DNA of 64,000 nt from Bacteroidota bacterium (lineage in GTDB: Bacteria; Bacteroidota; Ignavibacteria; Kryptoniales; JAKASW01), in contig JAJZNW010000055.1 of the NCBI GenBank assembly GCA_021811615.1, positions 83,117 through 147,116 on the forward strand. Direction: 5' to 3'. Shown in pieces: positions 48,979 through 63,586 of this stretch; positions within the stretch are counted from its first letter, which is position 1; every line of letters starts with the position of its first letter. The notes beneath the pieces are model-generated. The model was not told the origin of the DNA. It searched no databases and was given only the letters and a program-made list of their open reading frames with translations. A program made the translations under genes and the position numbers.

Positions 48979-50712
48979 CTACTTAAGAAGAACCATTTTC
49001 TTGGTAATCGAGCTGGCACCCTGGCGAAGTGTGTAGAAGTACACGCCGCTCGCGAACCTGTCCATGTTCACATTGAAGGAGTATTCGCCGGCGGACCTGT
49101 AACCTTCGGCCACAACATCGACAAGCTGGCCAAGTACATTGTAAACCTTCAGACTCATCGAGCCTGCGTGCTGCAGGGTAACCATGATCTCGGTTGTCGG
49201 GTTGAAGGGGTTCGGATAGTTCTGGCTCAGCGTGAACTCGGTCGGGACTTTCGGACTACGCAGCACGGGCGTAGCCAGGCTATCGAACTCTCGCAGCTGC
49301 GACGGGTACCAATTAAGATCGCCGAGCGCCAGTCCATCTGTACCGCCGGATTGAAGAGCGGTGTTCGAATAGGTCAGGTTCTCAGGTACGGGGTAGCCGG
49401 TATCCCATCCTCCCCAGTTCTTGGGGAACTGGTTGAAGACATCCGCGGGATTGGGATTGGTCGGCAGATACCACCATCTGAACGTACCGGCGTTTCCAGG
49501 AGGATAACCTATGAGCCCGATGAACTTGACGAGGCTGTCCGTCGCAGTGTTCACCATCGTCGAATTGAATCCGGGGTCGACGCTATCGTTGTTTGCCTGG
49601 ATTAGGTAGGGCCAGGCGGTTTTGTTATTGAACATGGAGTCGGTCTGCGGATTCATCCATTCAGGAGGATAAAGCAGACTAGGAGCGGTATCGTTGACTG
49701 AGTTCCAGAAAGTATAGAGCTGCTTCGGCCAGCAATAGGCATTGTTCTTCACCGTAATATGTCGCTGCGCCTCGGTAAAACCGTACTGCGGTCCGATCGC
49801 CCCCATAGAATCGACCTGAATTACTCCGAATGGCTGGTGAGCGTAATTGGCCAGTCCTCTCAACACATATGCGGAGTCCGCTCCGTGCGCCTCAACGCCG
49901 TAAAAAATGTTGTTCGTGAAGTTGGCATCGACCAATCCTGCGGACATTATGAAGAGGCCGCCGGTACCTAAGAAATTGGTGTTGTGATTGTAGTTGAAGT
50001 ATTTCACGTAACCGGGACCGCCGATGACGTCGCGTCCCAATCCGAAGAACGTATTGTTGACGATCGACACGGTGTCCAGCGGTGCAGCGCCGTATCCCCA
50101 GACACATCCACCTGATTGCCAGAATTGGTTCGATGCATTTCTGAATTCGCAGTTCTTCATGATGAAGTTGCACCAATTTCCGTGCATGTACGCGAGATAC
50201 GGGGCACAATTGTCTATCACATCGTGGTCGTAGATTATCGTCGTGCTATCCCCGCTTTCGTTGATTATGTTCCCGAGGAAGTGTTGCCCGTCGAATGTCT
50301 CTCCGAGTATATACAGATCTTTAAGTATTATCACGTTTCCATTTCCTCGCGGTGCCATGAGATTTCCCGGAGCGGTCCCGTCCTGCAGGATGTTCGGGCA
50401 AATCACCGGCGGCATTCCCGTGATCGGGTTCCTCTTCCCGATGATCGTCACATTGAAGTTGGTAATCATCGAGTTGTCAAAATAGTAAACCGTGTCGACT
50501 GATCCGGTCTGCTGCAAAAGGTAGACACGGTTCGGATCTTTTCTCTGACCGGTGGAAGTAGTGTCACCCATGATGACTTGGTCGAATGTAGGACCGCTGA
50601 TGGGGTTGGCATAGAGACGCAATGTGTCGGACGCCTGGGCGAACGATCGGGATGGAACCGCGAACGTGGCCGCAAGGGCGAGCAACGCCATTGCAGTAAG
50701 TGTTACTTTCAT
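48979..50712 (-). CDS. Secreted parallel beta-helix-like protein with T9SS C-terminal sorting domain (paralog of 21013-22761)
   Basis: Start at ATG 50710-50712 (MKVTLTAMALLALAATFAVPSRSFAQ); same layout: YDHDVIDNCAPY / MKNCEFRNAS / IVNNTFFG / YNHNTNFLG / FTNNIFYGV rungs, ITVKNNAYCWPKQ, NADSVDPGFN-like tail, LSQNYPNPFNPTTEIMV. Confidence 0.75.
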   Translation of the reverse strand: MKVTLTAMALLALAATFAVPSRSFAQASDTLRLYANPISGPTFDQVIMGDTTSTGQRKDPNRVYLLQQTGSVDTVYYFDNSMITNFNVTIIGKRNPITGMPPVICPNILQDGTAPGNLMAPRGNGNVIILKDLYILGETFDGQHFLGNIINESGDSTTIIYDHDVIDNCAPYLAYMHGNWCNFIMKNCEFRNASNQFWQSGGCVWGYGAAPLDTVSIVNNTFFGLGRDVIGGPGYVKYFNYNHNTNFLGTGGLFIMSAGLVDANFTNNIFYGVEAHGADSAYVLRGLANYAHQPFGVIQVDSMGAIGPQYGFTEAQRHITVKNNAYCWPKQLYTFWNSVNDTAPSLLYPPEWMNPQTDSMFNNKTAWPYLIQANNDSVDPGFNSTMVNTATDSLVKFIGLIGYPPGNAGTFRWWYLPTNPNPADVFNQFPKNWGGWDTGYPVPENLTYSNTALQSGGTDGLALGDLNWYPSQLREFDSLATPVLRSPKVPTEFTLSQNYPNPFNPTTEIMVTLQHAGSMSLKVYNVLGQLVDVVAEGYRSAGEYSFNVNMDRFASGVYFYTLRQGASSITKKMVLLK

Positions 50713-50803
50713 GACATTTCTCCTCATGTATGTTAAGTTCAGTGAACTCATTCACGCAGGTCGAAGACTCGAGTGACGTGGCGATCGCACCTGTCTTGTA
50801 CCT

Positions 50804-53800
50804 TTATAATGTCCAGCGCAATCCCAGGTCGGCCGTCATACCGTAGGATTGCTCACTTGTCGGGAACCCTGTCCCCTGTACTACCGAGATATCCGGTTCA
50901 CCGTTCAGGTTATTGGCCTGGAAGTAAGCTTCAAGCCCGCGCCATGGGAGCTGCTGGCTTACAAGAAGATCCCATCTGACATACGCGGACCTGTAACTCC
51001 GGAGCTGCGGCCAGAAGTTCGTCCCACTGTACACGCTCCTTTGGTTTATCATGGATACGCGGGCGGAGAAGCCTTGGAAGTCGTAACCGATGGTCAGATT
51101 CACGATGTCACTCGGCTGGTCGATCAATTTGTCGGTGTAAAATGTGTCGATGTAAGATTCGACAGGAGGATAGCCGGTAATCCTCGTTATGATGAACGGG
51201 TATTGAACCTTCGAAAAGATGTGAGTGTAGTTGATGCTGAACACCAGCCCGGTCAATGGTCCCGGCAGGTACCAGAAATGAGTCTGCCAATCCACTTCAA
51301 CTCCCCAAAGATCCACGGGCCGGGGATTGTTGATATTCGTTCCGTTGAGAATATATCCCTGAGTGTAATTTGGTAATCCCGCGTAATCAGCAGGGTTGGT
51401 TATTGAGACCGCTCCTGTCGGATAAATCAGACCGGTTATCCGTTTGTAAAACGGATCAACCGTGAAGAGACCGATGGTATTGTCATAAGCCGACAACGCA
51501 AAATCGAAATTCTCCGAATGGGCGGGCTTCAGTAAAAAGTTATTCCAGTCGACCGTGCTGACAAAGACATCGATCCTCGGGGCGATTGCACTGAAATCAG
51601 GATATGTAAGCGTATTGGTGTAGGCAAGTCTCAGGTTAAGCCATGAAAGGGGTTTGTAACTCAGGTTGACATCCGGGAGCCAGTAGCCATGATACAACGA
51701 GACGGTCGTATCGGCGGACGGAAATGGAGCCGGGTAGGTATTGTTCTGATAAGCCGCAAGTATGACGGTGCCTCTGTATCTCGTCGCGAGCCCCTGATAC
51801 CTGACGCCGGGTATCAGAGTCAACTGCGGTCCTATGTTCAAAGTAGCCATCACATAGCCTGCATTTTCAAATTCATTTCCCGAATAATTGCTTGCGATGT
51901 TCCCGTACTCATCGGGCGCGTAAACGGTACCGCTAATCCACGGCTGGGTCTTTTGATAGCTGATCACCGTGTTCATCACTTGGGAGAGGAGACCTATGTT
52001 TGTCGGCGAGCCGTACATTGCGTATTGACCGTTGAGGAAGTTCCCGAAGCTCAGGCTGGGGTCGAGAAACATTCCGATTGGAAATCTATCGGTGCCGTTC
52101 GGGTTGAGGGACCATGGCTTTTGTGTCATCCACGGGAACGCCGCAATTACGTTCGATCTCGCAGCGTTGATTCCTCCTCCGTAAATGCTTCCACCGCCAT
52201 CGGAATAGTTGTAGGCTCTGTAAGTGACCTTGTAGCTCCCGCCGAACTTCAGCGAGCCGGTTATGAAATTCGATAAGTTGAAATCCCTCTTTATATCGAT
52301 TCCGCCTCTCAGATTGCGCTGGTAAGTGAAACTATTATGTGTACTGAGGGCATCCATTAGGGCATTGTTAAGGTTCACGTGCCGACCGGCTTCCTGAGCG
52401 ACCGTAGTCGGATTCGCAGTCAGCGACACATTTCCAAGCCCCGCCTGGTATTGAGAGAAACCCACGCTCCAGTAACCGGGCTGGACGTTATCGGTATACA
52501 TGTGGGCGAGTCTGACATCGACATCGAAGGAGAGAAGTTTCTGTTTGAAATTCAGGACGTTCGCGATGACATTCAGGGTCTGCGGATAATAAGAAGCACC
52601 GTAGACTATCCTGGAATCGGTGATCCCGTAACTCTGGCTGAAAGTCTCGGTTCGCTGGACGCCGCTGCTCAGGAAGTTCATTAGGTCGACCTTGCCGCTC
52701 CCCCAGTGATAATCGAGCACGAGGGTACCGTCATAAAGCTTCTTCGTAGTAGGTTGGTAATCGAGGTTCAGGCTCTGCACAATCATCTCGCCTGGATTCG
52801 AGTAGTTCGTCGGCTTCTGCAGATTGAACGACGCGCCATATATATCCGCAGTAAGGTTCAGCCGCTGTACAAGCGCCTGAGCGAGAATTCCGAACCGGTT
52901 GTGGAAGAATCGCTTCTCTATTGTTCCGGAGAATTTATAATCGCCGAGACTGTTCTGCAGATGATCATACCCACCCTGAGCCAGGAGTTCGATTTTCGGT
53001 GTCCCGTTCCGCGTCGGCTGCGCCTCTCTGATCTGGAAGTTCACCGTACCACCGAGGACGGCAGCATTCATGTCCGGGGTGACCGTCTTATAGAGTTCGA
53101 TACCGCTGAGCATGTCTGAAGAAATCATGCTCATATCGACGGCGCGATTACCCGTCTGGTTGGCCGGCATAGAAACGCCGTCGATCTCTACACGATTGTA
53201 TTTCGGCTGGAGCCCGCGTATGGCGATCATGGCCCCCTCCCCGTACGACCTGACGAGGAATACGCCGGGGAGTCTGCCGATAGACTCCGCCGCATTCGCG
53301 TCCGGAAGCTGCTGTATCCGGGCTGCGGAAACGACATTTACTATGTTATGGGAAGCGAGCTGCTGGTTGATAGCTTCATTCTGGCCGGTCGCCTGGGCAG
53401 TTACCACTACCGCCTTTCCCTTGACACCGACAGGAACGAGTTTCAGGTCTTCCACAGTCTTCACGCCGGCACGCACCTGGACCTCGACCTGCCGCGTCTT
53501 GTATCCTATATAAGTGACGCGGATGGTATATACGCCGGCAGGGATATTCGTAATATAGAAATTTCCGTTGAGACTCGTCGACGCGCCGAGGCTTGTTCCC
53601 TTCAGTAACACGTTGGCACCGGGAAGTGGACTCCCGGTCGCCGCATCCCTGACCGAACCCGATATCTTTCCCGAGCCTTCGGGAGTATCCGTGTTCTTCG
53701 GCGCAAGAGCAATCAGGTTACGATTGACAACGACCCATTTGACATCTACCTGGTTGAAGATGCTCGAAAGCGCGTCGCGCAGCGGTTCGGAATCAACCTG

Positions 53801-54028
53801 TGCGAAAATCAGTTTGTTGGTAGAAAGTTTGTTGGGGTCATAGAAGAAGGCGGCGGAGGTTTTCCTGGTAATCTCGCTTAAGGCCTGCTTGAGCGTCGCG
53901 CCATTTAACGTCAGCGATATTCGCCTGGAAAGGTTGATCTGATCGGTCACCTGATCGCCCTTTTGGGCGAAACCTACGACCTGAAGGAGGAATATCAGGG
54001 CTGCCGAAATTACACAAAGTCTTCTCAT
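50804..54028 (-). CDS. TonB-dependent transducer/receptor with STN and carboxypeptidase-regulatory domains
   Basis: 1074 aa; STN region (ISLTLNGATLKQALSEITRKTSAAFFYDPNKLSTNKLIF..VKWVVVNRNLIAL), ISGSVRDAATGSPLPGANVLLKGTSLGASTSLNGNFYITNIPAGVYTIRVTYIGY, plug NAAESIGRLPGVFLVRSYGEGAMIAIRGLQPKYNRVEIDG. Confidence 0.95.
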   Translation of the reverse strand: MRRLCVISAALIFLLQVVGFAQKGDQVTDQINLSRRISLTLNGATLKQALSEITRKTSAAFFYDPNKLSTNKLIFAQVDSEPLRDALSSIFNQVDVKWVVVNRNLIALAPKNTDTPEGSGKISGSVRDAATGSPLPGANVLLKGTSLGASTSLNGNFYITNIPAGVYTIRVTYIGYKTRQVEVQVRAGVKTVEDLKLVPVGVKGKAVVVTAQATGQNEAINQQLASHNIVNVVSAARIQQLPDANAAESIGRLPGVFLVRSYGEGAMIAIRGLQPKYNRVEIDGVSMPANQTGNRAVDMSMISSDMLSGIELYKTVTPDMNAAVLGGTVNFQIREAQPTRNGTPKIELLAQGGYDHLQNSLGDYKFSGTIEKRFFHNRFGILAQALVQRLNLTADIYGASFNLQKPTNYSNPGEMIVQSLNLDYQPTTKKLYDGTLVLDYHWGSGKVDLMNFLSSGVQRTETFSQSYGITDSRIVYGASYYPQTLNVIANVLNFKQKLLSFDVDVRLAHMYTDNVQPGYWSVGFSQYQAGLGNVSLTANPTTVAQEAGRHVNLNNALMDALSTHNSFTYQRNLRGGIDIKRDFNLSNFITGSLKFGGSYKVTYRAYNYSDGGGSIYGGGINAARSNVIAAFPWMTQKPWSLNPNGTDRFPIGMFLDPSLSFGNFLNGQYAMYGSPTNIGLLSQVMNTVISYQKTQPWISGTVYAPDEYGNIASNYSGNEFENAGYVMATLNIGPQLTLIPGVRYQGLATRYRGTVILAAYQNNTYPAPFPSADTTVSLYHGYWLPDVNLSYKPLSWLNLRLAYTNTLTYPDFSAIAPRIDVFVSTVDWNNFLLKPAHSENFDFALSAYDNTIGLFTVDPFYKRITGLIYPTGAVSITNPADYAGLPNYTQGYILNGTNINNPRPVDLWGVEVDWQTHFWYLPGPLTGLVFSINYTHIFSKVQYPFIITRITGYPPVESYIDTFYTDKLIDQPSDIVNLTIGYDFQGFSARVSMINQRSVYSGTNFWPQLRSYRSAYVRWDLLVSQQLPWRGLEAYFQANNLNGEPDISVVQGTGFPTSEQSYGMTADLGLRWTL

Positions 54029-54030
54029 GA

Positions 54031-55164
54031 TTAGTTCCTTTGTACGTTGCTCTTTTCATGAACAGGAATTGCTGCATTCCTCTCGAAGCGGATTGTGTCT
54101 CCGCTCCTCATATATCCGATGCCGAGTGAAACGGAAATTGCTTTCAAAATTGCAGCCAGTGGTTGTCGTGTTAACGAGGCAGTGACTCTTTCCCCGAGAA
54201 GCGAAGTGTCTGTGACACCGAAGGTGTACGGGTAGTCACGGCCCAGCTTGGCGAGTACATGCCTGAAGGGGGTTTTGTCGAAGATCATGGCGCCATTGAG
54301 CCAGGCAAGACTCTGCCTGACATCCGCGCGAGACGGTTCTACAACAATCCTGTTCTTGTCGGAAATGGATCTTTCCCCCGCAACGACAGGCACCCCCGTG
54401 CTGTTTAGAGAGCTGCCGGCTCGGAGTATGATTTCCCCTTCAGTCACTGTAACTTCGGTCTCTTTTTCCCCAGGCCATGCCCTGACGACGAACTCCGTCC
54501 CGATGTCCTGGATAATTCCGCAATCCGTTCGAACGATAAAGGGCGTTTTCAAATGTACGACATCGAAAAACGCCTCGCCCTTGAGCTCGACGATGCGCGA
54601 TCGTTTCCCATAAGCTTTCCCGACACGGATCGATGAGACTGAATTCAGGGTGATCCTCGTACCGTCGGCCAGCAAAAGCGTCTTATGCTCTCCCCTTCCC
54701 GTCGAACATTCCAGGCTCGCAACGGGAGAAGTGTGCCTTTTTCCGAAAAACGATTCGGCGTTGAACGCGATATAGACGGATCCTACGACCGCGATAAGGA
54801 CGGCAGCGGTCCTTGCGATAATTCCGAGGTTGAATACTCTGCCGCGCCCGCTTCGACGCTCTTGATCCGTAATTGACGGAGCGGGTGAAGTGATCGTATC
54901 CGACTGGCGCGATGTCGCCCCTTTCCACACGAGAGCCGATTCCCGGAACGAGATAGCCTGATGAAGTCTCTTGAGCGCTTCGACCTCGTCGACAGTGTGG
55001 AGGCTTTGATCCAGTGGAGAGGTAATCTGTTCACCGAGGTATGCGGTCAGCGATTCGGCGATCACCTTCAGCTCGGGATCTTCGTCCACTATTCTTCTTT
55101 CGTCGGCCGAACACTCTCCGGCTATGTACTTTCCAACAAGAACCCAATCGATGGATTTCTCCAA
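54031..55164 (-). CDS. FecR-family anti-sigma regulator
   Basis: 377 aa; N-terminal cytoplasmic helix, TM (IIARTAAVLIAVVGSVYIAF), FecR domain TGRGEHKTLLLADGTRITLNSVSSIRV..VVHLKTPFIVRTDCGIIQDIGTEFVV, C-terminal FDKTPFRHVLAKLGRDYPYTFGV. Confidence 0.93.
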   Translation of the reverse strand: MEKSIDWVLVGKYIAGECSADERRIVDEDPELKVIAESLTAYLGEQITSPLDQSLHTVDEVEALKRLHQAISFRESALVWKGATSRQSDTITSPAPSITDQERRSGRGRVFNLGIIARTAAVLIAVVGSVYIAFNAESFFGKRHTSPVASLECSTGRGEHKTLLLADGTRITLNSVSSIRVGKAYGKRSRIVELKGEAFFDVVHLKTPFIVRTDCGIIQDIGTEFVVRAWPGEKETEVTVTEGEIILRAGSSLNSTGVPVVAGERSISDKNRIVVEPSRADVRQSLAWLNGAMIFDKTPFRHVLAKLGRDYPYTFGVTDTSLLGERVTASLTRQPLAAILKAISVSLGIGYMRSGDTIRFERNAAIPVHEKSNVQRN

Positions 55165-55485
55165 CTCGCAACCTTCCTAATAATTGAACATCGGATTACA
55201 GCCTGGGCCCAACGCTATTGTCCGGTGAATCGTTTCCATCCAGAGCTTCGCCATCTCAATCGCATCGAAGCTCCATTCTTCGGTTCCGGGCGATAGTCGG
55301 ATGGCGGCTGTGGGACTTCATATTGAGTGTTGCCAGCACTCCGCCATATTTTGATGCTCCTATACAAGACGGCTGAGGATGCGCTTACCCCTACATTATT
55401 CACAGCGGAAGGGAAGATTAATTCGATCGTAACGGGAAAGGAACATACGGCGGGGGTAATGAGCCCTCACTTCGGAACGGGCTGT

Positions 55486-56079
55486 CTAACGGTGGGCTTC
55501 CGAGAACTCCGGCATACTGTTTCGAATGGCCTTCAAGGCGCGACCCATTTGTGTCTCGACCGTCTTAATCGAAACGCCGAGTCTCACGGAAATCTGCTGA
55601 TAAGTGAGTCCGTCAGTTCGACTAAGCAAAAAGATCGTTCTGCTCCCTTCCGGTAATGCCGATATCGCCTCTTCTGCAATCTTAAGTGCGGCCCTGTTAT
55701 CGAGATCGACTACAAAATCTCCTGCATTGGGATCGTTTGCGACATCATGGTCGGGGTCGATGAAACGCACATGTCGCAGATGATCCAGTGACGAGTTCTT
55801 TACGGATCTCTCGAGGAAAGCTCTGACGGAAGTGTCGATAGTGAGATCCGATTTCCCCACCCATAATCGGAAGAAGACGCCCTGGACGATATCCTCGGCA
55901 GTATCTATGGATCTCACAATTCTTTCACTGAGACGACAGAGGACCGTGTAGTATCGCAGAAAGAGCCTGTCGAACGCTTTTGAGTCACCCTGTCGAATAC
56001 GCTCGACAAGCGCCAGGTCGTTTTCCTGCAGTTCCGGCAAGACGCCCCCCCTCGGATTGATCTCCTGAGTCTGACTCAT
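55486..56079 (-). CDS. ECF-family RNA polymerase sigma factor
   Basis: 197 aa; KAFDRLFLRYYTVLCRLSERIVRSIDTAEDIVQGVFFRLW (region 2), ALPEGSRTIFLLSRTDGLTYQQISVRLGVSIKTVETQMGRALKAIR (region 4). Confidence 0.94.
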   Translation of the reverse strand: MSQTQEINPRGGVLPELQENDLALVERIRQGDSKAFDRLFLRYYTVLCRLSERIVRSIDTAEDIVQGVFFRLWVGKSDLTIDTSVRAFLERSVKNSSLDHLRHVRFIDPDHDVANDPNAGDFVVDLDNRAALKIAEEAISALPEGSRTIFLLSRTDGLTYQQISVRLGVSIKTVETQMGRALKAIRNSMPEFSEAHR

Positions 56080-56956: not shown

Positions 56957-59900
56957 CTATCCGTTTTCGCCAGTCAGTCTGGCGATCTGCAACAAGTAGA
57001 ACCTCAGGATGGCTTGCTCCTTGGGATCGAGGGGCTGTTCTTCGATCTTGATGATCTTCTCGACCTCTTTGAGGGCTCGAATAATGTTGACGGGAACTTC
57101 CACCATCGATTCGGATATCGTCGTCAAATAGTCGAGAGCCGCGGATAGAAACTCGTTCATGCTGTCGTCGAAAGAAGGCGTGACGAGGTGCGGCGCGATC
57201 CTCAATTTCCCGGGCTTGAACAGATATTCCTTCTGCACTTCTGCTGAAGACAAGGAATGCAGGGCCAGGGCCAATTCGGAAAAACTCGATACGCGTTCGT
57301 AGACCGGTTGCTCCAGAAGTCCCCAGACCTTCCCTCGCCAGTAACGCACCTCGGTCGGGACCTTCAGCAGCCCTTCTACTTCTTTGAGCCACTCTCCATC
57401 CAGATGATTTCCTATCTCCGCGCGCATTTGCTCCGCGTCAGTGTTGAAGAAATCGCGCTGCAGCAGAACCGCTACGTCGGGCCTGACTGTCGGCAGCAAC
57501 TGAGGCACAAAAGTGTCGCCCGAGAAGAACTCGGATACGTCCAGACCATGTCTTCTGAGAAGCTCCTTCTGGAATAGCGGCAGATACTTCCTCATGAGAT
57601 CGACATCTTCCCGCAGGGCGGTTAACGCCGAATTCCCCGGTGGGAAGGCCTTGTCCAGCTTGTTCACGTAAGTCAAATCAGCATCATGGTAGGTTCTCAA
57701 AGTCTGCAGCATCTCATAAACCGGAAGGCGCGGCAGTATCTGGTCGGAGATTAGAGCGTCCGGCTCCCCTTCTGCAAACTCCATCATCGAGAAATTATCT
57801 AGAGCCCGGAACAGGCCGGTCGTCAGTTGGTTTATACCCAGCACCGCGGTCTGCGACAGGTTATGAGAAATCGCACGGAGAAGACTGCCGTATTTTGACA
57901 ACGGGATCGTGCCGGCAATTCGCTGTATGATCTCCTCGCCGGCTCCCTGTCCTACTTCCTGTCCCGGGCGGGCCGTAGGACGGTCTCTGAGTGGAGGCGA
58001 CATCCTTCCCACGAAGTACGATATAATATGAAGTCCGATCACGTCTTCTTCCCGGCCGTAAAGAACCTGTCTGAAATTCTCCCTGTGGATGCCCAGGAAA
58101 TCGTCAAAGGCTTTGTCGTGCCTTCCGATTGTGATCCTCTCGAGTTCCTGTAGCCCGCGAGTCTTGAATTGAAGCCTGGTTTCCGAGAGCGGCTCGCTCG
58201 CCCTGAACGCTTCGCCTTCGTAGAACTCCTGAGCTCTTTTGACGTGGTAAACCAGCTGAGACAGCTCCTTCACAGGGAGATGGCGGCATCGTTCGAACAG
58301 ATTGCTCTGGAACGTGCGGAGATCCCCTGAAGCAAATATTCCCATAAGCGGCGTTGTCGCATAATAAGTGCTGCGGCGTGTCGACTCCTGCAGATATGCC
58401 GTGAATCTCGTTCGCGAATTTTCGTTTTGGAAGAAAAGGCGTTCGCCGGAAACGGGAGAGTAATAGCCCCCCTGGCGCTGCATCGGTTCGCCGCTCCCCA
58501 GTTTCAGTCTGATCCTCCCCGCGAGGCCGTGCGAACTCAGCCATTTCAGGAATTCAAACTTCGATTCATTGTAAAGGCTCATCCCCATAGCTTGTCCCAC
58601 TTGCTGACTGAGATCCGAACCCGCCACAAAAATCTCCGTTACGATTTCGGAGAAACGCTCACCGGTCTCCTGATTCATTCTCCTGCTCCGGAAAGCGTAA
58701 TCCCAGACTTTACTAAGATAATCCTTAATTCCCTTTACCGAATCGATATCCTCGAAGAGCGGGACTATCCACACGTTCGGAATCTCGCTGTCGTTCCTTT
58801 CCCTTATTATCTCCTCACGCTTCGATCTGAGTTTGCGATCGAGCGAGATCAGAGCCTCGGGCTTCGTCGTCATGCTGACCTGCAGGGCGAGTACCAGTCC
58901 CGGATTACCGTACTTACCGGAAAGCTCGTTTATCTCGTTTATGTTGTGGACGGTGGTATCGATTGCGAACTGATCCTGCGCGGTGATCAGCTTCTGGTGA
59001 ATGCGCGGTGTGATTACAAACCTCCTCAGCAGGTCCCTGTACGAGCTTACTTCAAGAAGGAGTTCCCTGTTCGAAAGGTTCTCCATCACGCTGGGGATCA
59101 GCGAATGGATGGCTTTCCTCAATCGCTTGTTCAATGAGAAATAATACTCGAGCGTATCCCTGCGCCTTTTGCGAAGGTCGAGCATCTTTCTTTCGAGGCG
59201 GTCATTATGCTGCCAGAGGGACATCAGCGGATCCTTGGCAAGATGAAGCTTCATGCCGAGGTTCCTCAACCTCCCCGGTCTCATATTGACGGGCAGCGTT
59301 CCGCGATATCTTTTCTCAAGCTGGACGGTGAGCCGCGTGATCCCCGACAGGAGAGAGGAGAACCTGTTGTTGCTTTCGCGAAGCGTCTCGATCTCCTTAA
59401 CAAGCGGCTCATCGATCCTGATGCCTGAATCTGCTCTGAGCAAAGCCTGAACAATCCTCGCCTGCCGGGCAACATTCTGAATGAGTACTGCGCTGACGAG
59501 GCTCTGTCCCTGTCCCGAAGGACGGCTGCTGCCGTCCCAATCCCCCCAGAAGGAAAGGAACGTCTCATAACGCTCGTCCGAGTGCAGGTTCAGATAATTC
59601 TCGACCGCCATCATGGAGTCCATGTCGAGGATCAGCTCATCCGGCTCCTCGTTCGACATGATCGGCACGTTCAGGCCGAAATATTCTCTTACGAGATCGG
59701 TTCTGATCCTCCGGTAGAACTGCTCACCCAGCTCGCGATCGTGCGAAACTGCGTCGATCAACCTGTCGAACAACGCTTCGGTCTGCATCGAATACATCTG
59801 AGTCGGATGTACAGTGCGATCGAACAGCCTAACGCGGAAGGCTTCTTTTCTCCTCGATAAATCATCCTTATAGAATTCTTTTTCGAGAAATTCGCTCGTC

Positions 59901-62548
59901 GATGCACCGCCCGAGAGATACAGGTTGGCGGTCTCGTTTATTATATTCTCACGGTCTTCGAATCTCTTCCGAAACACCGAGAGCCTGAACGGGAGAAACT
60001 CCGTTTCAATCCTCTTCCTGTGAAGATCGTATTCCGCTTCGAGATCGTATCTGCCGACGAAATCCCTCACCACGTCTTTGACGTTTTGGCCGATGGCCGA
60101 CTCGATTTCCTTCCATCGCGCGGCGCCGTCGACTATCCTGACCTCCCTGCGAAGGTTAATCTCTTTATAACTGAAGAACTTCCGGTTATAGCTGGACGCT
60201 TCTTCCGCGATCATCCTGTTGAGGTCTATGAGCACACGGCGTGTCTTCCTGGCGAGTACCTCCGCGCCATCGGTTCCGCCCAGCGTGAGCCGGAAGGATT
60301 TCCTTCCGGTATCGAAACCTTTTTCCGTGCGTGCGAAAGTGGAAAGCGGAACGAGCCCAACGCCTTGTCTTGCCAGGCCTGATGCCAGCCAGTCGAGGGA
60401 AAGGCCTGCGGGGAGCTTGTTCACCACCATCTTGGGATACATGCTCCCGACCGGCGGATCTATCCTGATGTCGAACTGATTTCTTTCGGCCGGCAGATTT
60501 TCGGCGGCTTCGAGAAGAGCATCGCTCCTCGATTTGAATATCCTGTTCCTGAGCCGGTAATAGGCGTTTACGCTCTCGACTCTGTTTCTGTAAAAGAGGT
60601 AAGCGAGTGCGATCGCTCCGACGTTCGACTCCAGCGACGACAACACTGATTTGAATTTTTCAAAAAGCTCCCTGTTTCGTATCTCGACTACTGAAAGACG
60701 GGCGCCAGCGTATGAATCGGTCTTCGACATGGAATGAACCGTCACCACGAACGCGGCTTCCTCTTCCGTTATGTAACCCGCGCGAGCCAGGTCATCCGCA
60801 GTCTGGCGAATCGTCGGGATATGGTCAAGTGTCTCAGAAGGCTTCACATTCTGGTACGACAGGTCGTCTATGATGAAGACTTTACGGCCGACGAGCCACT
60901 TGATGAGCCGGACGACGTCATCTTGTCTGAATATCTGTCCAGTTGCATTATGAGGGTTATTTAAGACTACCGCGCCGTGCTTTCCCCAGTTCGGATCGGA
61001 TGCGAGGCGCATCTGGACCGATTGGATGATGCCATCGACGTCGAGTTGAAAATCCTTCGTCAGGGAGACCGGCAGGTTCTTCGGGAAACAGTGCTCGTAC
61101 GTCCAGCTCAAGTCCGGTATGACGACCTCATCTATGCCGCAATGAAAGCCGAGAAGGCTCAGGACAGTTCTCGACGAGCCGCTTGCCACCAACGAGTTCT
61201 CGGGCTTGTATTCAGGGTGGTGGTTCAGAAACGCGCTCAAATAGCTGCGGCTCAGCTCAGATACCCACTCTCGTACTTGTATGTTTCGCCCTATTTCATC
61301 CATGAGCGCGGTCGCGTTGAGATCGCGGAAGATGTCGACATGGCTGCGTTGGGCCAGGTGCATAGCTCTCGCCAGATGGGAGGCCGTCTTGTCTCCGAAA
61401 TTCGCGATCGATTTCTCGACCAGGTTGCTCCCCTCGTCAAGGATTTCGCTTAATTTGTCCTCTGCACGAGAGACGATTCTGCCCACTGATTCGAGTGCGG
61501 GTACACCGGCTATGCCTTCGTATTCGGCCTCGAGCCCCATCTCAGGTTGGGACCTTCGCGCTTCCGGAAGTGTGCTCAGCAGGTAATCGAGCAATTCAAT
61601 CTCGGTCGACGATGGGGTCCCCTTGAGTTGGAAGTGCACCGTCTCGATGACCTGAAGAAAATCCGAATTACCTGCGATGAAAGTGAGCGAGAAATTCCTG
61701 AGATGAGGGCTGAACACGCCGGGGGTCATAAACCTTATGACCCGGTCCATCATCTTAGCTTCGCGTGAAAGCGAGAGATGGTTCGGTGCGTCGTTGGCTT
61801 CTATTATCAGAAGCGGGCTTGAAAGGCTGATTTGCCTCAGACGCCGCCTCGATTCCTCGGAAACCGTCTTGCCCATAAGCAAAAATATCGGAGCCGGCGG
61901 ATGTAAATCGAAGTGCAACACAAGCTGTTGTACCATGACCGATTCATCATCATCGGACTGGACAAGAGTAATGTCCCTGAAGTCTCTAAGAAACGGCGGG
62001 ATCTCGATTCCAAAAAGGAATATCGTGACGGGCGATGCCGTCATGAAATCCGACAGCGATTGAAATAATACTCTGAGCGCTTCAAGTTTACCGCCCGAAG
62101 CGAGGATTATTTCACGCTTGCCGGTCTTCTCGCCGAGATCGTAGGAGAGCGGCTCCTGTTCTTCTTTCGAGAGCCAGTCGCTGAATCTCCGCACCAAAGG
62201 GTGCGGCTTCGATTTCAGGAACCCTCCGCGCGGTGAATAGGGTGCACTCTTCTTAACAAGATTCGCAAGAAAGTCAACCTTACGCTTCTCTTCCGGCTGC
62301 AACCCGAGCTGTTCGATTATTTCATCCGGATTGTCCACCCCGAAGCGCTCGTCGGAGACATCGATCCCGAGAGCAAGACGGAAATAGGCAGAGTAGAGCC
62401 GGTCGTCCTGCACCGGGTTGCCGATATGAAAATTGACACGTTCATCCGGCGGTACCGGCGACATCGCCGTGGCCTCGCTTATTTCAGATACTTTCGCCGC
62501 GCGGATCGGTTTTAACCTGAAATACTCTAACGGGTCTTTATTTCCCAA
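56957..62548 (-). CDS. 1863-aa multidomain protein: degenerate aminotransferase-like domain + PLP aminotransferase domain + PEP-carboxylase-like domain
   Basis: Aminotransferase motifs ASGSSRTVLSLLG, AVVLNNPHNATGQIF, VFIIDDLSYQ, TVHSMSKTDSYAGARLSVVE (candidate PLP Lys609); PEPC-like motifs RTVHPTQ (res. 911-917), FWGDWDGSSRP, GNPGLVLALQVSMTTKPEALISL, VPLFEDIDSV, EIFVAGSDLSQQVGQAMGMSLYNESKFEFLKW, LKLGSGEPMQRQGGYYSP. Confidence 0.75.
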   Translation of the reverse strand: MGNKDPLEYFRLKPIRAAKVSEISEATAMSPVPPDERVNFHIGNPVQDDRLYSAYFRLALGIDVSDERFGVDNPDEIIEQLGLQPEEKRKVDFLANLVKKSAPYSPRGGFLKSKPHPLVRRFSDWLSKEEQEPLSYDLGEKTGKREIILASGGKLEALRVLFQSLSDFMTASPVTIFLFGIEIPPFLRDFRDITLVQSDDDESVMVQQLVLHFDLHPPAPIFLLMGKTVSEESRRRLRQISLSSPLLIIEANDAPNHLSLSREAKMMDRVIRFMTPGVFSPHLRNFSLTFIAGNSDFLQVIETVHFQLKGTPSSTEIELLDYLLSTLPEARRSQPEMGLEAEYEGIAGVPALESVGRIVSRAEDKLSEILDEGSNLVEKSIANFGDKTASHLARAMHLAQRSHVDIFRDLNATALMDEIGRNIQVREWVSELSRSYLSAFLNHHPEYKPENSLVASGSSRTVLSLLGFHCGIDEVVIPDLSWTYEHCFPKNLPVSLTKDFQLDVDGIIQSVQMRLASDPNWGKHGAVVLNNPHNATGQIFRQDDVVRLIKWLVGRKVFIIDDLSYQNVKPSETLDHIPTIRQTADDLARAGYITEEEAAFVVTVHSMSKTDSYAGARLSVVEIRNRELFEKFKSVLSSLESNVGAIALAYLFYRNRVESVNAYYRLRNRIFKSRSDALLEAAENLPAERNQFDIRIDPPVGSMYPKMVVNKLPAGLSLDWLASGLARQGVGLVPLSTFARTEKGFDTGRKSFRLTLGGTDGAEVLARKTRRVLIDLNRMIAEEASSYNRKFFSYKEINLRREVRIVDGAARWKEIESAIGQNVKDVVRDFVGRYDLEAEYDLHRKRIETEFLPFRLSVFRKRFEDRENIINETANLYLSGGASTSEFLEKEFYKDDLSRRKEAFRVRLFDRTVHPTQMYSMQTEALFDRLIDAVSHDRELGEQFYRRIRTDLVREYFGLNVPIMSNEEPDELILDMDSMMAVENYLNLHSDERYETFLSFWGDWDGSSRPSGQGQSLVSAVLIQNVARQARIVQALLRADSGIRIDEPLVKEIETLRESNNRFSSLLSGITRLTVQLEKRYRGTLPVNMRPGRLRNLGMKLHLAKDPLMSLWQHNDRLERKMLDLRKRRRDTLEYYFSLNKRLRKAIHSLIPSVMENLSNRELLLEVSSYRDLLRRFVITPRIHQKLITAQDQFAIDTTVHNINEINELSGKYGNPGLVLALQVSMTTKPEALISLDRKLRSKREEIIRERNDSEIPNVWIVPLFEDIDSVKGIKDYLSKVWDYAFRSRRMNQETGERFSEIVTEIFVAGSDLSQQVGQAMGMSLYNESKFEFLKWLSSHGLAGRIRLKLGSGEPMQRQGGYYSPVSGERLFFQNENSRTRFTAYLQESTRRSTYYATTPLMGIFASGDLRTFQSNLFERCRHLPVKELSQLVYHVKRAQEFYEGEAFRASEPLSETRLQFKTRGLQELERITIGRHDKAFDDFLGIHRENFRQVLYGREEDVIGLHIISYFVGRMSPPLRDRPTARPGQEVGQGAGEEIIQRIAGTIPLSKYGSLLRAISHNLSQTAVLGINQLTTGLFRALDNFSMMEFAEGEPDALISDQILPRLPVYEMLQTLRTYHDADLTYVNKLDKAFPPGNSALTALREDVDLMRKYLPLFQKELLRRHGLDVSEFFSGDTFVPQLLPTVRPDVAVLLQRDFFNTDAEQMRAEIGNHLDGEWLKEVEGLLKVPTEVRYWRGKVWGLLEQPVYERVSSFSELALALHSLSSAEVQKEYLFKPGKLRIAPHLVTPSFDDSMNEFLSAALDYLTTISESMVEVPVNIIRALKEVEKIIKIEEQPLDPKEQAILRFYLLQIARLTGENG

Positions 62549-62575: not shown

Positions 62576-63586
62576 TTACTTCTCTTTGGACTTCCGGGTC
62601 GAAGTAGTAAGAGAGTTCTGAAGGAAATTCTGGAGTGCGCCCGCGAGTTCCGAACCCAAAGACATATCTTTTGACGACAACGAAACGACCGTCTTCGCGT
62701 TTCGAAGTGCCTGACTTGCCTCAGCGAGGCGGGCGGCCTGGGGAGTCAGTATGAGAAGTTCAGGGTTTGCCTTGAGGAGTTCCAGTTCCTGCCTCTCATA
62801 TTCGAGCTGCATGTTCTTCCGTTTCAGTTCCTCCTCGACGCGCTTCCTGGAAATCTCAGCCTCTTTCTCGACTTCGGCCTTCTTCAGTTCGAATCTCTTC
62901 AGCTCCAGCTGATTCTCCAGGAGAGCGACCTGCTCATCGGCCTGAAATTTCCATTTGGCAGCCGCGATCCTCCCCTTCTGGCTCAGCTCTTCGGTCTGTT
63001 CAAGTATCCTGGCAGACTCCTGCTGTCGAATCGCTTCCGCGATTTTCGTGTCTACAATATCGACCGACATTACCGCGACAGATATGACTTCCAAACCGAA
63101 TCTTTGTTTGCTTATACGGATCTTCTCATCCAGGTAACTATAAATCTTCTCGGAAGAGAGTTCCTCGATCTCGAACTTCTCCGTAAATTCCCTGACAAAA
63201 CTCTGCACCACCGTCTCTAACTCGCTCGCGGCCGCTGCCACCGCAGTCTTGTTCCATCCGCCGACTTTTATGAGCGTTTCAATGTTCTCTGCTGATAACG
63301 CGACCGACAGTGCAAGCCGCACCTTGATGTCCAGGTTGCCCTTTGCAGCCGCGTCCACGTTAATCTCAGATGAGTGGACAGCTCTCGGCAGCACGAGGCT
63401 GAAATGCCGCGCATAAAATCTTCCTTTTCTCAACCCGATCTTTCCATGCATTTCGTAAAGCACGATCTGATCGGGCCGCCTCAAACGATATTCGTACACC
63501 AAATAAAGTATTACGAGCGCTAAGACTATTAATAGGAACCACATTTTAAAACTCCCGATGAAGCTTAGTATTATTTCGGCGAACAA
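62576..63586 (-). CDS. SPFH/Band 7 (prohibitin/flotillin-like) membrane protein
   Basis: 336 aa; N-terminal TM (MWFLLIVLALVILYLVY), NIETLIKVGGWNKTAVAAAASELETVVQSFVREFTEKFEIEEL, FGLEVISVAVMSVDIVDTKIAEAIRQQESARI then long charged coiled coil. Confidence 0.82.
   Translation of the reverse strand: MFAEIILSFIGSFKMWFLLIVLALVILYLVYEYRLRRPDQIVLYEMHGKIGLRKGRFYARHFSLVLPRAVHSSEINVDAAAKGNLDIKVRLALSVALSAENIETLIKVGGWNKTAVAAAASELETVVQSFVREFTEKFEIEELSSEKIYSYLDEKIRISKQRFGLEVISVAVMSVDIVDTKIAEAIRQQESARILEQTEELSQKGRIAAAKWKFQADEQVALLENQLELKRFELKKAEVEKEAEISRKRVEEELKRKNMQLEYERQELELLKANPELLILTPQAARLAEASQALRNAKTVVSLSSKDMSLGSELAGALQNFLQNSLTTSTRKSKEK

Follow-up and report, generated by a model that had tools for sequence, protein, structure and literature searches.

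The window, a 64,000-nucleotide stretch of a Bacteroidota contig (JAJZNW010000055.1, positions 83,117 to 147,116), contains a gene for a genuine, old protein of 1863 aa. In it an aminotransferase is joined in one chain to a domain predicted to have the fold of phosphoenolpyruvate carboxylase (PEPC), and the gene next to it encodes a small SPFH/Band-7 protein. We tentatively propose, giving it slightly less than an even chance, that the protein is a bifunctional enzyme of the PEP/oxaloacetate/aspartate node, kept at the membrane by its SPFH partner, and that its PEPC-fold half has probably altered chemistry.

A single chain shared across phyla

The two genes and the parts of the fusion protein are as follows.

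56957..62548, minus strand: fusion gene of 1863 aa (pseudo-aminotransferase, aminotransferase and PEPC-like parts), TTG start, one of 65 loci in contig searches
61574..62548, minus strand: residues 1-325 (domain 1), probable degenerate aminotransferase large domain; AF2 strand order readable as fold-type I, marginal hhalign
61352..61573, minus strand: residues 326-399, linker and helices, poorly conserved, pLDDT <50 in parts
60179..61351, minus strand: residues 400-790 (domain 2), fold-type I PLP aminotransferase by PF00155, Foldseek and catalytic residues
56960..60178, minus strand: residues 791-1863 (domain 3), divergent PEPC-fold domain by AF2, Foldseek and hhalign
62576..63544, minus strand: SPFH/Band-7 (flotillin-like) partner of 322 aa, ATG start with GGGAG upstream, ending 27 bp before the fusion gene

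A sequence-only reading of this DNA had described an ORF with aminotransferase and PEPC-like motifs. Its coordinates, its length and all the motifs quoted were borne out, to which we add the strand. Chance does not explain the motifs: across 48 full-length homologues, every one of them is conserved without change or almost without change.

Searches of relatives and of genome contigs found the 65 loci. Intact loci, uninterrupted by a contig end or an apparent frameshift, hold one ORF of about 1,800-1,940 aa that aligns end to end at 40-92% identity; the ORF in L066 reads longer, stop to stop. All complete homologues are single chains, which bears out the fusion as real and conserved across phyla. 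No stand-alone PEPC-like domain was found in 247 Bacteroidota, 297 Acidobacteriota and 41 Calditrichota genomes, aside from split or short frames in two genomes (G094 and G615). In G094 (locus L143, 7590-13133) the gene lies in two overlapping frames with the break inside the PEPC-like part, and in G615 the frame has only 1049 aa, near a contig end. Three further homologues (L051, L055 and L057) appear frameshifted into two overlapping frames, probably by sequencing errors.

The carriers are Ignavibacteria (several titled Bacteroidetes), Calditrichota and Acidobacteriota, with the gene in 11 of the 247 Bacteroidota, 13 of the 41 Calditrichota and 4 of the 297 Acidobacteriota genomes. Most are MAGs; Stygiobacter electus (L061) is an isolate, and the genome G216 consists of one contig. 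The alignment of 48 sequences has 240 invariant columns, and dN/dS against a 92%-identical relative is 0.07 overall and 0.06 in the PEPC-like part. In the gene tree, single branches set apart the Calditrichota and the Acidobacteriota, both surrounded by Ignavibacteria-type sequences, which points to mostly vertical inheritance with losses and to a probable transfer to Acidobacteriota.

An intact aminotransferase domain and a probable degenerate copy

Domain 2 is, judged from its sequence, a working-looking fold-type I aminotransferase. Aminotran_1_2 (PF00155) matches residues 437-760 with an E-value of 3e-14 (53.4 bits versus a cut-off of 19.7), and Foldseek of the domain found aspartate aminotransferase 1b5o at E 3.7e-15. 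The motifs NPHNATG (531-537), IIDDLSYQ (559-566) and SMSK609 lie in it, and the equivalents of AspAT N194, D222, Y225, K258, R266 and R386 are each present in 48/48 sequences. The earlier assignment of a PLP aminotransferase is thereby upheld. Two of these residues are:

60722..60724, minus strand: Lys609, PLP Schiff-base lysine (K258 of AspAT), invariant
60290..60292, minus strand: Arg753, alpha-carboxylate arginine (R386 of AspAT), invariant

Compared with class I/II aminotransferases (PF00155; Thermus thermophilus AspAT, yeast Bna3), domain 2 shares the fold and all the PLP-site and alpha-carboxylate residues. Unlike them, it is very divergent, scoring well short of the cut-offs of the listed NCBIfam models, and probably has a degenerate copy ahead of it in the chain.

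That copy, missed by the sequence-only reading, would be residues 1-325, which may form an intrachain pseudo-dimer with domain 2. AF2 predicted the two domains together with a pLDDT of 88.5 and a pTM of 0.87, and the strands REIILASGG, P-IFLLMG, LLIIEAND and LTFIAGN of domain 1 could follow the aminotransferase order. When domain 1 was aligned to AATs with hhalign, the register was right, and suggestive of a duplication of domains 1 and 2, with a marginal P of about 0.05; a PDB profile search with the N-terminal domain returned no relevant match. The PLP lysine and the NPHN motif are absent from domain 1, which has the invariant motifs NFHIGNP and PY-x-P-x-RGG. Its invariant Tyr104 and RGG are candidates, by motif placement only, for the residues given by a partner subunit (Tyr70 loop).

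A very divergent domain with a predicted PEPC fold

Domain 3 is, by its predicted structure, a very divergent PEPC-fold domain. The AF2 model has a pLDDT of 83.8 and a pTM of 0.86, and all 50 PDB matches listed by Foldseek were PEPCs (best E 8.4e-12, probability 1.0). Global TM-scores were low, 0.27-0.44 for most matches with rmsd mostly 15-23 Å and 0.52 on the target for the archaeal-type 3odm, and therefore the overall arrangement differs from that of PEPCs or is mispredicted. This result excludes an unrelated fold for residues 791-1863, an outcome the sequence-only reading had named as its refutation.

Profile-profile comparison (hhalign) of domain 3 with 30 true PEPCs gave a score of 50.4 and a P of 1.2e-4, where the 30 are E. 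coli Ppc, the PEPC of the window's genome and relatives, pairs among them sharing as little as 22% identity. With an earlier PEPC set, the score was 45.3 versus ≤31.1 for 60 column-shuffled decoys and 22 for reversed decoys. The alignment placed PLFE on PLFE, GSDLSQQ on YSDSAKD and GSGEPMQRQGG on GRGGSIGRGG, while global-mode hhalign was uninformative.

In Pfam searches, the window protein had no match to PEPC (PF00311), and the best relative reached 18.1 bits (20.1 in a genome search), below the cut-off of 22.4. For one relative (L012), PF00311 and archaeal-type PEPC (PF14010) were the two best Pfam families, both below cut-off, and its PF14010 match covers a core stretch where true bacterial PEPCs match PF14010 too. 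A PDB sequence search with the C-terminal profile found nothing relevant; the PEPC link thus escapes sequence HMMs used by themselves. The profile-profile, fold and weak Pfam matches together agree with the earlier claim of a PEPC-like part.

Active-site residues kept and changed

The PEPC-like motifs are TVHPTQ (with His914), WGDWDG (1001-1006), PLFED (1263-1267), GSDLSQQ (1310-1316) and GSGEPMQRQGG (1351-1360). The residues equated with those of E. coli PEPC are listed with their occurrence in the 48 sequences.

59807..59809, minus strand: His914 in TVHPTQ, equivalent of His138, 48/48 (His138 30/30 in true PEPCs)
59003..59005, minus strand: Arg1182, equivalent of Arg396, 48/48, by motif, AF2 strand end and spacing
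58751..58753, minus strand: Glu1266 in PLFED, putative metal ligand, equivalent of Glu506, 48/48, by hhalign
58613..58615, minus strand: Asp1312 in GSDLSQQ, putative metal ligand, equivalent of Asp543, 48/48, by hhalign
58601..58606, minus strand: Gln1315-Gln1316 replacing Lys546-Asp547, Gln in 48/48 and 44/48 (Lys and Asp each 30/30 in true PEPCs)
58475..58477, minus strand: Arg1358 in GSGEPMQRQGG, equivalent of Arg587, 48/48, by hhalign
57980..57982, minus strand: Arg1523 in RDRP, equivalent of Arg699 in GSRP, 48/48, by motif
57875..57877, minus strand: Arg1558 in LRAI, equivalent of Arg713 in LRAI, 48/48, by the identical motif
56960..56962, minus strand: Gly1863, C-terminal as in PEPC, 47/48, the remaining sequence being truncated

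The Arg396, Arg699 and Arg713 equivalences were drawn from motif and spacing rather than from coordinate superposition. The equivalents of Ser542 and Pro700 are also present in 48/48, and the same conserved set recurs in further, distant Calditrichota. In PEPC, the histidine is the catalytic base, and a PEP-binding arginine is attracted by the C-terminal glycine (PMC3894211). The C-terminal residue of the 30 true PEPCs is Gly in 25 and Ala in 5.

Besides the Gln-Gln replacement, the His579 position is Met or Leu, and the Arg581 position is Ser (S/A/N/C across the family). Among the 30 true PEPCs, in contrast to their invariant Lys546 and Asp547, Asp stands at His579 in 5 and Thr at Arg581 in 2 (the sequences cited for this variation are L121-L125). 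Lys546 has a role in HCO3− binding. Judging from the replacement of this residue and of Asp547, canonical HCO3− carboxylation is probably not what the PEPC half does. We do not class the fusion as a PEPC, as it lacks the Lys546-Asp547 pair and scores below the family cut-off.

The SPFH partner and the neighborhood

The partner gene was also missing from the sequence-only reading. Its product has an N-terminal hydrophobic stretch, an SPFH domain and a coiled-coil-like tail. Band_7 (PF01145) is matched by 31 of 44 members of the partner family at E ≤0.1 (best 1.3e-9); the window's own partner does not reach E 0.1, and a PDB search with the SPFH family found nothing relevant.

Where flanking sequence suffices (54 loci), the partner lies directly upstream of the fusion gene in 51, of which 48 were found by script and three (L029, L055 and L064) were added, the partner match there overlapping only the pre-start stretch of a long stop-to-stop frame. 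The fusion genes without an adjacent SPFH gene (L032, L050 and L066) belong to one Bryobacteraceae clade. Each of the two genes occurs in 11 of 247 genomes, and the 11 are identical. The distances of the two proteins correlate with a Mantel r of 0.93, reached in 0 of 2000 permutations. Downstream of the fusion gene in L042 (5165-9138) there is a second, canonical flotillin (Band_7 and Flot) followed by an aminotransferase.

Besides the SPFH gene, locus comparison showed no widely conserved neighbor. The end of the window is the end of its contig (C63), the sequence upstream ending 414 bp past the next ORF. Downstream, at 48979-56079 on the minus strand, lie an ECF sigma factor, FecR, a TonB-dependent receptor (CarbopepD_reg and STN) and a protein whose C-terminus resembles a type IX secretion sorting tail; this gene order is shared by a near relative (L010).

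In 4 of about 50 genomes, a class I aminotransferase gene and an ATP-PEPCK gene follow the fusion gene directly on the same strand (L027 in Acidobacteriota; L035/L137, L049 and L143 in Ignavibacteria), with one regulator gene intervening in L049. In this minority, the two-gene cassette is thereby linked to the PEP/oxaloacetate/aspartate node. Of 36 carrier genomes, only 9 have an ordinary PEPC above cut-off; a tenth hit turned out to be the fusion gene. In the window's genome, a genuine, full bacterial PEPC exists separately from the fusion gene.

Proposed mechanism and alternatives

From the gene pairing, we infer that the SPFH protein would sit anchored on the cytoplasmic side of the membrane, probably as an oligomer, and recruit the 1863-residue enzyme. 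Within that enzyme, the degenerate and the intact aminotransferase domains may pair as a built-in pseudo-dimer. The PEPC-fold domain would bind Mg2+ or Mn2+ and PEP, or a closely related enolpyruvate or 2-oxo acid, through His914, Glu1266, Asp1312, Arg1182, Arg1358, Arg1523, Arg1558 and the C-terminal Gly. A 2-oxo acid common to the PEPC-fold and aminotransferase domains, most likely an oxaloacetate-type one, would be interconverted with its amino acid, most likely aspartate. With Gln-Gln in place of Lys-Asp, the PEPC half would carry out changed enolate chemistry at the same node rather than canonical HCO3− carboxylation.

The sequence-only reading had left the choice between an oxaloacetate-to-aspartate channel and a repurposed PEPC fold. 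The Gln-Gln pair and the separate PEPC of the window's genome favor the repurposed fold, and simple PEPC activity loses ground. The family could even be a third branch of the PEPC superfamily that lacks Lys546-Asp547 and runs a new PEP or enolpyruvate reaction feeding the aminotransferase of the same chain on an SPFH membrane scaffold, a possibility that we regard as less likely than not.

A genuine fused PEPC-aspartate aminotransferase, in which oxaloacetate made from PEP and HCO3− is handed to the aminotransferase to give aspartate, is unlikely. It would fit the retention of His138, both metal ligands and four of the key arginines in 48/48 sequences; His579 and Arg581 vary in some divergent true PEPCs as well; and most of the 36 carrier genomes are without an ordinary PEPC above cut-off, so that in them the fusion would not duplicate an existing PEPC function. 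However, the Lys-Asp pair that is Gln-Gln here stays invariant in the 30 PEPCs even where these share 22% identity, GSGEPMQ stands in place of the GRGG loop, and the window's genome already has a full bacterial PEPC. A review of the PEP node describes no PEPC fusion (PMC8100219).

Improbable as well is a regulatory or sensor complex with an envelope-stress or microdomain function. Here PEP, aspartate or malate would be a ligand of the PEPC-like domain that is not turned over, and this domain would control the aminotransferase, the SPFH membrane assembly or both. The loss of the active-site lysine and the near-obligate partner would fit such a role, as SPFH proteins are described as membrane microdomain scaffolds (PMC2636767, PMC8581546), but a pure ligand sensor is not expected to preserve the catalytic-base histidine, the two metal ligands and the arginine set without exception in 48 sequences.

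An anti-phage or other conflict system is very improbable. In its favor, the two-gene cassette is patchy within a genus, with a full or near-full copy in 5 of 13 genomes. On the other hand, neither protein matched any PADLOC family at E ≤1, the neighbors are mainly housekeeping and variable, and the recurring PADLOC families are helicase-type models matched by 2 of 109 neighbors. Collections of plasmids, phages and viral contigs gave no matches, and the gene tree mostly follows taxonomy. An assembly chimera, the other refutation named beforehand, or a non-functional ORF has practically no chance: apart from the carriers being mostly MAGs, nothing favors it, and it is ruled out by the dN/dS of 0.07 and by dozens of independently assembled genomes, the isolate and G216 among them, that share the architecture.

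Comparison with known systems and significance

The proposed membrane-associated enzyme resembles known systems in its parts. PEPC (PF00311) shares with domain 3 the predicted fold, the order and spacing of the motifs, and the His138, Arg396, Glu506, Asp543, Arg587, Arg699, Arg713 and C-terminal Gly equivalents. The fusion differs in its score below cut-off, in the Lys546-Asp547, His579 and Arg581 positions and in the altered GRGG loop; moreover, its domain is longer (about 1,075 aa) and joined to an aminotransferase. Known PEPCs fall into a few types, and each is a chain of its own that assembles into tetramers (PMC8100219). Archaeal-type PEPC is similar by the weak L012 profile match at the core and by 3odm in Foldseek, but domain 3 is about twice its size, fused and below cut-off.

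Like the bacterial SPFH operons (stomatin/flotillin with NfeD; HflKC; YqfA type), the pair is a tight two-gene unit with a small, N-terminally anchored SPFH protein; unlike in those, the partner is a giant metabolic-type enzyme. Among the partners named in a reference survey of SPFH operons in prokaryotes, there is no carboxylase and no aminotransferase (PMC2636767). Our literature search for an aminotransferase-PEPC fusion or an SPFH-PEPC pairing found no description, in line with the earlier statement on the fusion, and both appear undescribed.

The pair may work as metabolic machinery tied to the membrane at the PEP-oxaloacetate-aspartate junction. An ancient fusion with an aminotransferase, locked in its architecture and accompanied by an SPFH protein, would give this node a new layout and be a rare case of a bacterial flotillin-like protein with one defined enzymatic client. 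It would also offer a natural experiment on the role of the active-site Lys-Asp pair of PEPC, and two genes suffice for direct tests of the whole proposal. If the family is a third PEPC branch, it would represent a hitherto undescribed type of membrane microdomain system, one that carries an enzyme.
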